Assembly (NCBI GenBank): GCA_021775425.1
Contig: JAJFHX010000020.1
Span: 83,582 to 147,581 of the forward strand
Direction: 5' to 3'
DNA length: 64,000 nt
Source of the DNA: Hyphomicrobiales bacterium
GTDB taxonomy: Bacteria > Pseudomonadota > Alphaproteobacteria > Rhizobiales > HXMU1428-3
The translations under genes were made by a program, and so were the position numbers. The notes under the pieces are model-generated. The model did not search any database. It saw nothing but the letters and a program-made list of their open reading frames with translations, and was not told where the DNA came from. Below are positions 49,124 through 53,432 of this stretch, one piece after another (the first letter of the stretch is position 1; each line of letters opens with the position of its first letter).

Positions 49124-49489
49124 CTAATATCCCATCCCGCCAAGCATCGCGCCATTGACCATCTCGAACAAAGTCTCCGGGCCAAAATAAAACACCAGCG
49201 GCAAACAAAGCACCAGCCCGACAAAAATTAGCATCAACAATAACGGCCAGACGGCTTCAACAATCCAGCCAATAAGAAAAGTGAACGCCGCCACCAGAAA
49301 CGCGAACAACAATGAAAGCGGAATAACAATAGCCAAATGATGGCTCACAACCGCATTATCCGCCGGGCCATAAACATAAATCAAACCAACCACACCAAGG
49401 GCCAGCAAACCACCAACCAGCGTGCAAACGCCAGAAAAAACACCGGGCTCCGGCAGTTCATCCATTATGCCATGTTGTTGTTCACTCAT
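49124..49489 (-). CDS. Small membrane protein between glyQ and glyS
   Basis: 121 aa with three to four hydrophobic helices (GVCTLVGGLLALGVVGLIYVYG, HLAIVIPLSLLFAFLVAAFTFLIGWIVEAVWPLLLMLIFVGLVLCLPLVFYFG). ATG 49489 has GGGG upstream; ATG 49495 is possible. Not recognised; position between the two synthetase subunit genes suggests only co-expression, not function. Confidence 0.75.
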   Translation of the reverse strand: MSEQQHGIMDELPEPGVFSGVCTLVGGLLALGVVGLIYVYGPADNAVVSHHLAIVIPLSLLFAFLVAAFTFLIGWIVEAVWPLLLMLIFVGLVLCLPLVFYFGPETLFEMVNGAMLGGMGY

Positions 49490-49530
49490 CACCATCCCCA
49501 ATCAAATACAAATAGTCGTTAAACCAAACC

Positions 49531-50520: not shown

Positions 50521-51066
50521 TTTAAAGTTTTATCCCTGTCACTAACATTCCGTAACACATCAAGAAGCTGGCACGTTCAAAGTTAAGCGTAAAAAATAAG
50601 CACAAGACATCTTAAGCCGCGGCCCCGCTTAATTTACGCCCCCCCTGACACCCCAGAAACAAACAATCAGAAGGTGCCTGAATTATAGTGCCCCTTTTAG
50701 CCGAACGAAAAAGATTTAGCTACCACGTTTTTAGCTCAATTTGCTCATCCACGGCCTAAATAAAGCCGCTCACTGTTGCCCTTTTACTCTTGCCTAGAAG
50801 CTTAACCACTTTATTCTACGTTAACCATGTTGTAAGTGCGCCAAAAATGAATATCCTATTGATAAAAAGAACAAACAACGAAGCGATTTGATAGTGAATA
50901 TCCCGGTTGGGGGGCAATACCAGGCCAAATTCTTCAAATCTGCTCCACGCGGCAATGAACACATGAACGAACGTTAAGAACTGAAACGTTAAGTACTAAA
51001 ACGTTAAGAACTAACAAGGCAACGAACCAGGGGATGTATGTTGGTATGTTGGGAAGAGTTTTAAAT
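50521..51066. other. Intergenic region between glyQ and the GH19-type gene
   Basis: No gene seen. It must hold the promoters of both divergent genes. The last 100 bp carry three 15-bp tandem repeats (separate entry). The middle part is AT-rich without a clear RNA gene. Confidence 0.6.
50971..51015 (+). repeat. Three 15-bp tandem repeats ACGTTAAGNACTNAA upstream of the GH19-type gene
   Basis: Units at 50971, 50986 and 51001 share ACGTTAAG exactly and differ at one to three later bases. The strict 15-bp period (about 1.4 helical turns) and the position 50-100 bp before the start suggest a repeated regulator site; simple slippage is the alternative. Confidence 0.75.
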
Positions 51067-52710
51067 ATGTCTGCCATTCAAAAGGGCGGCCAGAAACGAT
51101 CACACCTGAAATATGGCCCTATACTAGGGACGGTTATTGTGGCCGGTATGGTCGCTTTACTTCCCATTCAGTTCAAAGCTGGCACATTCACCCATTCAGT
51201 TGCCACAGCCCAGGAAGATACAGACAGCGAACCGGATAAACCCAAATCCTTCACCAAGGAAGATATCATCGACCGGGCACATTTTTTTGCCAAATTCCGC
51301 ACTAATTTTTACCGCATCACAGACAAAGAAGCCTATTTGGTCGATAGATACGAACGCATTTTCGATTATTGGGACAGCCAGCCACAATTAAAAGACCTGC
51401 GCTGGCTGGCCTACATTCTCGCCACCACATATCATGAAACAGGCCGCCGCATTCAGGCGGTTAGAGAATGTTTTGGCAAAACAGATCAGGAATCGATCAA
51501 TTGCGTCACCAGCCTTTATCGTCGCGGCCGCATCAAACGCAACTATGCCGCCATAGATAAAGTTACAGGCAAAGCCTATTTTGGCCGCGGCCACGTTCAG
51601 CTCACCTGGGATTTTAACTACAAGCGCATGGGCAAAGAGCTCGGCATGGGTGATCAGGTCTATATCAACCCAGACCTTGCCCTCCACCCGGATAGCTCTG
51701 TTGCCATCATGGCTGAAGGCATGATCAAAGGTATCTTTACCGGCAAACGGCTCTCTCAATATTTCAACGCGACAACAGAAAACTGGGGCGGCGCCCGCCG
51801 TATCGTTAACGGCCTCGATAAATACACCCTCATTGCCGGCTATGGCCGCAAGTTCTACGCGTCTTTGCGCACCATGAAAAACGAAATCCCTGTCGCCGAT
51901 GCGGATGATAAGAAAGATCCTGATACAAAAGATCCGGTCCAAACGGTTGATTGCACCAAACCATCGATACCGCAAAGCTGTTTGAGCAAACTAACCGGCC
52001 AGCTCGCCGTTTTAAATACCCGCTATGACGACCTGAATAAAACCTATCAGAACTCCCTCGCTGCCAACAATATCCTTGAAGACAAAGTAAAAACCCTGAC
52101 GCAAGACTTAAGTGAAGCCCAAAAAGATTTGCCAGCAGCAAAGGCTGAACTGGCAGGCCTCAAAAAAGCCCATCAGGTGCTACAGAATGAATATAATGAA
52201 CTTGAAAAAACCAACAAGACCAATGCGGATGAGAAATTGCGTTTAGCCGCCCTTTCAACTGAGCTGCAAACCAAACTGGACGACGCAATTACCACCGGTT
52301 CCACCGGCGATGGTTCATTGCTAAAACAACGCCTTGATGAGCTTGAAAAAAGCCAGAACGAAGTCAACCAGCAACTGGCTTCCATTAAAGTCAAACAATC
52401 AGAGTTAAATACGCTTCAAGACTCTCTAGCCAAAAAGGAAGCCTCCCTGAAAGACCGCACGGCTGATATTGAGCTTTCAAAAAATGCTCTGCAAGTGAGA
52501 GAAACAAATTTGTTAAAAGAACTTGATAACCTCAATCAACAACAAAAACAATTAAGCCAGGATCAGCAGGAACTTACATTAGAAGAAGAGCGCCTCAAAC
52601 GTTTTGATGAAGATTTGAAAGAAGAAAAACGAAAATTTGAGGAAGAAAATTCAAAAAGCTGGTATTCAAAAATATGGGACAGCGCATCATCCACATGGAG
52701 GAGCAAATGA
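51067..52710 (+). CDS. GH19-type lysozyme/chitinase-fold protein with long C-terminal coiled coil
   Basis: About 547 aa, not a standard chitinase. Seen: an N-terminal membrane anchor or signal (YGPILGTVIVAGMVALLPIQF), then a GH19-like domain (about residues 60-280) with the catalytic Glu in TTYHETGRRIQAV and the substrate-groove motif YFGRGHVQLTWDFNYKRMG, and GARRIVNGLDKYTLIAGYGRKFY. After an Asp/Lys-rich linker come about 240 residues of coiled coil (LEKSQNEVNQQLASIKVKQSELNTLQ...). ATG 51067 has GGAAGAG 8 nt upstream; ATG 51034 and 51046 are alternatives. It overlaps the next gene by ATGA. Likely periplasmic, acting on peptidoglycan or another polymer. Confidence 0.82.
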   Translation: MSAIQKGGQKRSHLKYGPILGTVIVAGMVALLPIQFKAGTFTHSVATAQEDTDSEPDKPKSFTKEDIIDRAHFFAKFRTNFYRITDKEAYLVDRYERIFDYWDSQPQLKDLRWLAYILATTYHETGRRIQAVRECFGKTDQESINCVTSLYRRGRIKRNYAAIDKVTGKAYFGRGHVQLTWDFNYKRMGKELGMGDQVYINPDLALHPDSSVAIMAEGMIKGIFTGKRLSQYFNATTENWGGARRIVNGLDKYTLIAGYGRKFYASLRTMKNEIPVADADDKKDPDTKDPVQTVDCTKPSIPQSCLSKLTGQLAVLNTRYDDLNKTYQNSLAANNILEDKVKTLTQDLSEAQKDLPAAKAELAGLKKAHQVLQNEYNELEKTNKTNADEKLRLAALSTELQTKLDDAITTGSTGDGSLLKQRLDELEKSQNEVNQQLASIKVKQSELNTLQDSLAKKEASLKDRTADIELSKNALQVRETNLLKELDNLNQQQKQLSQDQQELTLEEERLKRFDEDLKEEKRKFEEENSKSWYSKIWDSASSTWRSK

Positions 52711-53348
52711 GTAGGCACAAATCCAGGCCGCAAACAACCAAGAAAGCAGCAACCAACATGATCATTCACGCAAAAACAGCAGCTAGATTTGCAGTATTTA
52801 CGATGCTGTCTCTGCTGGTCATAGCAACGACCCCATTTTCAACCGCCAATGCAGCAGACCGAACATTCGCCAAATTTGACATCGTGCTGAATAAATCAAG
52901 CGGTGCCGTAAATGTTGAAGGGCTGCAAACTAAAAATTATCTCCAGGAACTGGCAGACACCCGCTTCGCCTATCTTGATCTGAAAGTTCTGGTCGATGGC
53001 ACAGATGAAGATGCAGTTCTCCAGTCAACCGAAGAAGCTGACCGCCGTACCGAAGTTGATTGCCAGCAAGGCCGTTTCGGGCCCCTGCCCATGGTTGACG
53101 GAATGGAATACTTCCTAACCACATCTTATGAAGGCAAAAAAATTGACGTCACCTTCTATCCCGGCACCCGCGCTGTCCATACCTTCAACGATGTGGCCTG
53201 CACATTTGACATCCGCATCAAGAAAAAAGCCGTCTTTCACCTGCGCGGCTTCTTTGCAGTTGTCTCAAACACATATGAAGATGGCGTCGCCTTTCAATTG
53301 CGCCCGCTCACACCAACACCAAGTGAGATTGATCAGGTCTTGAAATAA
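52707..53348 (+). CDS. Secreted protein of unknown function, partner of the GH19-type gene
   Basis: 213 aa. Starts in the ATGA overlap with the preceding stop, with GGAGG 6 nt upstream, so the two are translationally coupled. Basic N-terminus, signal peptide FAVFTMLSLLVIATTPFSTANAA, then a mature domain DRTFAKFDIVLNKSSGAVNVEGLQTKNYLQELADTRFAYLDLKVLVDGTDE... with two Cys (VDCQQGRFGP and NDVACTFDIRI) that may pair. Strand-rich; I do not recognise the family. The coupling implies that it works with the GH19-type protein in the periplasm or outside. Confidence 0.8.
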   Translation: MSRHKSRPQTTKKAATNMIIHAKTAARFAVFTMLSLLVIATTPFSTANAADRTFAKFDIVLNKSSGAVNVEGLQTKNYLQELADTRFAYLDLKVLVDGTDEDAVLQSTEEADRRTEVDCQQGRFGPLPMVDGMEYFLTTSYEGKKIDVTFYPGTRAVHTFNDVACTFDIRIKKKAVFHLRGFFAVVSNTYEDGVAFQLRPLTPTPSEIDQVLK

Positions 53349-53370
53349 AACAAGATCGACTTGTTAAAAT

Positions 53371-53408
53371 AAAAAATCCGCGCTGTAATCACCCAGCGCG
53401 GATTTTTT
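53371..53408. terminator. Bidirectional terminator between convergent genes
   Basis: Perfect 15-bp inverted repeat AAAAAATCCGCGCTG / CAGCGCGGATTTTTT with an 8-nt loop. Confidence 0.93.
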
Positions 53409-53432
53409 ATTACCGATATATATTGATAGCTT

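Follow-up and report, generated by a model that had tools for sequence, protein, structure and literature searches.

A 64,000-nucleotide stretch of DNA from a Hyphomicrobiales bacterium (here referred to as the window) carries a pair of adjacent genes that looks like an inherited, so far unstudied cell-wall tool, present in at least three related families. The first gene encodes a GH19 enzyme of the phage endolysin type and the second a partner protein. In our view there is about an even chance (roughly 0.5) that the pair combines a domesticated, endogenous hydrolase of the cell wall with a periplasmic regulator dedicated to it, which would most likely be an inhibitor. The earlier note on this DNA had proposed an undescribed two-gene envelope system, and this proposal stands, the system being real and conserved: both proteins bear export signals, and the genes stand side by side in 13 genomes from three families (7 of the 8 genomes of the genus, g1, all five genomes of f12, and one of f9).

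The enzyme gene (547 aa; 51067..52710, forward strand) encodes a signal peptide, a GH19 endolysin-type domain, a long helical linker and an aromatic tail; a possible alternative start lies upstream, at 51034. The partner gene (213 aa; 52707..53348, forward strand) encodes a signal peptide (approximately residues 1-49) followed by a mature domain of about 160 aa. Both open reading frames and the ATGA translational coupling described previously were recovered in the window: the enzyme stop codon (TGA, 52708-52710) overlaps the partner start codon (ATG, 52707-52709), and the Shine-Dalgarno sequence of the partner, GGAGGAG (52697..52703, forward strand), is located within the enzyme gene and ends three bases upstream of the first partner codon. 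The junction was read in 12 pairs of g1 and f12; only 3 of them retain this overlap, the remaining ones having a gap of approximately 40-80 bp. The terminator said to close the cassette is indeed perfect, consisting of an 18-bp inverted repeat without a mismatch, an 8-nt loop and A/T runs on either side (53368..53411; -26.1 kcal/mol, z = -8.8, with 0 of 200 shuffles folding as well). Since this hairpin is sited between two convergent genes, it can serve both the pair and the neighbouring S49 gene. A simple promoter scan upstream of the cassette gave no signal above chance.

The neighbouring genes bear out the reported glyS-glyQ and S49-methylase-ispB surroundings of the cassette. Of the 8 genomes of the genus, 7 have the pair enclosed by glyQ and the S49 gene, a count that includes two genomes (G006 and G007) in which the locus is divided over two contigs. 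The eighth genome (G005) lacks the pair, and this absence is uninformative, because it also lacks a glyQ match and a close S49 orthologue. As a separate observation, G005 is a 98%-complete assembly of 6 contigs, so that either the glyS-glyQ-S49 block is absent from the assembly or the glycyl-tRNA synthetase has been replaced. The glyQ-S49 block, described as continuous in rhizobia, proved to be common rather than universal, with S49 beside glyQ in 6 of the 10 informative outgroup families. In five of these the distance between the two genes is 0.4-0.9 kb, which is too short for the cassette, and in the sixth it is 1.2 kb; in the other four families S49 does not adjoin glyQ. Because most outgroups that keep S49 beside glyQ have nothing between them, the cassette probably entered a pre-existing neighbourhood in the ancestor of the genus. 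A 125-aa membrane protein without a Pfam match is encoded between glyQ and glyS (window positions 49124-49501, reverse strand) and occurs throughout the genus.

The pairs of the other two families sit at loci other than glyQ-S49. In the four f12 genomes with enough flanking sequence, the neighbours are an SSF transporter, an L,D-transpeptidase and MscL, while the f9 pair (G015) adjoins an SLT_2 transglycosylase; we count the transpeptidase and the transglycosylase in favour of a cell-wall role. In G015 a 113-aa gene separates the enzyme and the partner (L025 5515-5856). Its product is an exported or membrane protein, helical and without a PHROG match.

The N-terminus of the enzyme (residues 1-48, ...VATA|QE; 51067..51210, forward strand) had been regarded as an anchor. 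Most likely it is instead a signal peptide that is cleaved off, since the orthologues show canonical A-x-A|Q sites (AHA|Q, ALA|Q, AFA|Q). Signal peptides were judged by eye from the sequences, and on this basis a signal-peptide-like N-terminus is present in all complete cassette enzymes. The GH19 catalytic domain (residues 69-271; 51271..51879, forward strand) is supported by Pfam (PF00182, E 2.8e-6, 27.7 bits against a gathering cut-off of 25.5; the G015 orthologue scores under this cut-off), by PHROG (endolysin family 181, E 1.9e-24, residues 54-292) and by AlphaFold2. The two motifs noted previously are in place: HETG at residues 123-126 (codons from 51433), containing the first catalytic glutamate (Glu124), and GRGHVQLTW at residues 173-181 (at 51583), with the second catalytic glutamate (Glu134, within VRE) between them. 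Both glutamates are retained in every cassette enzyme; in G015 Tyr replaces the His preceding the first of them. The domain is basic in all cassette enzymes. AlphaFold2, run with an alignment of 46 phage relatives, modelled most of the domain with a pLDDT of 91-98, and an enzyme profile built with 46 phage relatives matches GH19 structures in the PDB, the SPN1S endolysin (4OK7) among them.

A Foldseek search with the enzyme model ranks GH19 proteins first, the top matches being chitinases, which are also the best matches in a single-sequence PDB search. Bacterial GH19 chitinases (ChiC, ChiA) share the fold of the enzyme; however, profile and tree both place it nearest to phage endolysins, and no chitin-binding domain was seen in it. 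PaGH19Lys, whose E51 and E60 (the equivalents of the catalytic glutamates of the cassette enzyme) have been assigned as catalytic base and acid, is a proven muramidase without chitin activity (PMC12329726). The cassette enzyme would cut peptidoglycan, namely that of its own cell.

The nearest GH19 relatives of the enzyme are endolysins of both phages and prophages, as indicated by PHROG 181 and by a tree that comprised phage sequences and a few chromosomal GH19s, chitinases being left out. The cassette GH19s lie on one side of a branch with SH-aLRT 76-86, so their monophyly is not significant, and they are placed close to prophage GH19 genes of the same genus; the partner tree likewise lacks the resolution to address monophyly. 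These prophage genes (G001 C143, G004 C7 and G005 C1) belong to ordinary lysis modules with spanin-like genes. One of them (L027 272-2021, G001 C143) combines a PHROG 1158 tail-assembly-chaperone-like domain with a GH19 endolysin and is followed by an Rz-like spanin. The pair itself lies outside prophages: in contrast to L085 and L189, no holin, Rz/Rz1 or phage structural genes were found beside it, and its flanks in the genus are glyQ and S49.

The statement that the enzyme is unlike phage endolysins therefore needs to be divided: it holds for the architecture and fails for the catalytic domain, which is itself of the phage-endolysin type. GH19 endolysins (PHROG 181; PaGH19Lys, 9EOI; SPN1S endolysin, 4OK7) share the domain, both glutamates and the GRG.VQLTW motif with the enzyme. 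The cassette differs from them in the signal peptide, a linker of approximately 200 or more residues, the aromatic tail, a chromosomal housekeeping locus, a dedicated partner and the lack of holin or spanins. The longest C-terminal extension among the phage relatives is 102 aa, and none has a long linker. In 363 genomes of the order, partner-linked GH19 frames span about 480-608 aa, except for two cut by contig ends, while GH19 genes without a partner link are mostly 200-375 aa. The longer non-cassette GH19s that were opened proved to be M15-like-GH19 fusions, a protein with a C-terminal peptidoglycan-binding-like repeat and a prophage fusion, and in none of them do a signal peptide and a long linker occur together. 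No GH19 of the cassette architecture lacking the partner was found among the sampled genomes of the order, and the sole match of a contig scan with the GH19 domain was a Rhodoferax GH19 without this architecture.

The partner gave zero matches in Pfam, NCBIfam, PHROG and the PDB, and its profile matched nothing in the PDB at E up to 10, including X-Tfi (4QTQ) and other inhibitors. Pfam scans of 20 members of the partner family at E up to 1 detected no known lysozyme inhibitor family (Ivy, MliC/PliC, PliI, PliG), and no peptidoglycan-binding family was found in the partner by Pfam scan. Weak matches of its relatives to DUF2135 (E 0.05) and RFC_C (0.16) were taken as chance. Single-sequence structure prediction of the partner gave a poor fold, with a pLDDT of 40. 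Two conserved cysteines (C119 and C165) and the motifs GxR...ND[VI][AS]C and Q[LF]RP characterise the cassette copies. Pairing of a basic enzyme with an acidic partner was considered and set aside as inconsistent between families: the GH19 domain is basic throughout, but the pI of the partner ranges between 4.9 and 9.9, and so the simple picture of an acidic inhibitor fails.

Profile searches recovered the partner from three families of this order and gave weak or distant relatives in a few other genomes; a sample of the class yielded one weak match among 384 other genomes, 298 other genomes of a phylum sample gave no match, and none was found in viral contigs. All its closest copies adjoin the enzyme, so that the partner does not occur mostly on its own. 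Lone divergent paralogues are nevertheless present in f12 and f9. Those of the five f12 genomes (L031, L078, L079, L080 and L081) are all distant from any GH19 gene, and therefore the partner fold can serve elsewhere; in four of the five, the neighbouring gene encodes an EamA-like membrane transporter. A distant homologue (L185 5329-11000, G043) has genes for a bacterial alpha-2-macroglobulin and a PBP1C-type penicillin-binding protein directly beside it, a setting that we likewise count in favour of a cell-wall role.

Both proteins are under strong purifying selection. In the comparison of G000 with G002, the mature partner is 86% and the GH19 domain 80% identical, against 50% in the tail and 48% in the linker. 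In the comparisons with unsaturated dS (G002-G004, G018-G101 and G018-G159), dN/dS was 0-0.07 in GH19 and 0.01-0.06 in the partner; the linker gave 0.11-0.19.

Phage endolysins are lethal to the cell and for this reason are normally held in check by a holin. The activity of a chromosomal endolysin-type enzyme that has its own export signal and is fixed across families must therefore be contained, and the always-adjacent, unannotated partner is the obvious candidate for this task. The closest precedent is the XAC2609/XAC2610 pair (X-Tfe/X-Tfi), in which a GH19 peptidoglycan hydrolase is matched with a dedicated exported inhibitor (PMC10933484), much as the cassette enzyme is matched with a dedicated exported partner. 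XAC2609, unlike the cassette enzyme, is a cytoplasmic T4SS substrate with an XVIPCD, and XAC2610 carries a lipobox and folds as a beta-propeller, whereas the cassette partner has no sequence match to any PDB chain. The same layout of a lysozyme and an exported protein could point to an antibacterial effector-immunity pair, in which the enzyme is released against rivals, the partner shields the producer's own wall, and the lone paralogues of f12 and f9 are orphan immunity genes. T4SS and T6SS effectors, however, do not carry a Sec-type signal peptide, and the cassette enzyme appears by eye to have one; moreover, the pair occupies one fixed locus genus-wide, is strongly constrained and shows no diversification, and the partner resembles neither 4QTQ nor any lysozyme inhibitor or immunity protein by sequence (Pfam, NCBIfam, PDB). 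We thus consider such a role unlikely. It is somewhat less doubtful, and still only a possibility, that the partner works as an activator or adaptor, binding peptidoglycan or a membrane protein and positioning or switching on the muramidase. Exported regulators of periplasmic wall hydrolases are known, with EnvC and NlpD, one of which has a coiled-coil spacer, positioning or switching on amidases. In those systems the coil is on the regulator, while in the cassette it is on the enzyme and no M23/LytM domain is present. Conservation of the partner at least equal to that of GH19, with a dN/dS of about 0.04-0.06, is what a working component would display, and the G043 homologue beside a PBP1C-type protein and alpha-2-macroglobulin points the same way; against this, the exported protein dedicated to a GH19 peptidoglycan hydrolase in the best precedent is an inhibitor (PMC10933484), and the Pfam scan found no peptidoglycan-binding family in the cassette partner.

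Two further explanations appear much weaker. The proteins might merely share an operon without a joint function, as the intervening gene of G015 and the stand-alone partner-like genes could suggest, but the adjacency persists in three families at different loci and the enzyme architecture was never seen apart from the partner in the sampled order genomes, which renders this improbable. A prophage lysis module remnant retained by chance would account for the PHROG 181 type of the GH19 domain, and true prophage GH19 genes do exist in the same genus. The glyQ and S49 flanks without phage genes, the lack of a long linker in phage relatives, a dN/dS far under 1 and the absence of the partner from viral contigs make it extremely improbable that the present-day pair is such a remnant.

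Under the preferred reading, that of a domesticated hydrolase with a periplasmic regulator, a phage-type GH19 muramidase would have gained a Sec signal peptide and a spacer about 190-310 residues long, with an aromatic tail added in g1 and f12. Having acquired this signal, the enzyme would need no holin in order to act from the periplasm. Together, spacer and tail probably keep the catalytic domain some way off its dock, which would be a membrane or a protein, and peptidoglycan may thereby be cut at a chosen place. The partner, co-translated or closely following and co-exported, would bind the enzyme as its dedicated regulator, and we infer that it acts as an inhibitor or gatekeeper, preventing an enzyme that would otherwise be lytic from doing harm before it is required. 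Of the partner roles suggested in the earlier note (cofactor, inhibitor or substrate adaptor), that of an inhibitor is thus the one we favour. We propose more tentatively that the partner is the founding member of a new family of regulators acting on muramidases in the periplasm, and that the pair is an endogenous wall-remodelling device derived from a phage endolysin, in which a spacer of freely replaceable type, either coiled coil or disordered, acidic and proline-rich, sets the reach of the active site from the dock.

The linker of the window enzyme (residues 303-546; 51973..52704, forward strand) was modelled by AlphaFold2 as about 240 residues of near-continuous helix, in the form of two helices (303-410 and 413-546) broken by a GSTG hinge (52297-52308), with a helix pLDDT of 77-89 except for the first few and the last approximately 17 residues. 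Heptad periodicity in the linkers is weak (z 0.6 to 3.3), and the coiled-coil claim therefore rests on the AlphaFold2 helix. Thus the coiled coil of about 240 residues in the earlier note stands as a long modelled helix in the window, but it is not conserved. In the genus the linker has 228-241 residues, 1-2% proline and a pI of about 5 (5.0 in the window enzyme); in f9 it has 312 residues and is helical by sequence, with a pI of 9.8, so acidity is not shared either. In f12 it is replaced by a proline-rich acidic linker of similar length (185-233 residues, 13-20% proline, pI 4.1), and a coiled coil spanning the periplasm is accordingly not maintained. Because the linker type differs in f12, the conserved property judged from these sequences is a long spacer, not a coiled coil as such. 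This swap of linkers is a natural experiment on spacer length versus sequence in periplasmic wall enzymes. The aromatic C-terminal tail, which would be the docking element, reads SWYSKIWDSASSTWRSK in the window enzyme (52657..52707, forward strand) and has similar counterparts in orthologues, including an f12 tail that resembles it (SWWGT.KS...VWKF); a short aromatic tail of this kind (SW[YFW]...) terminates most g1 and f12 enzymes.
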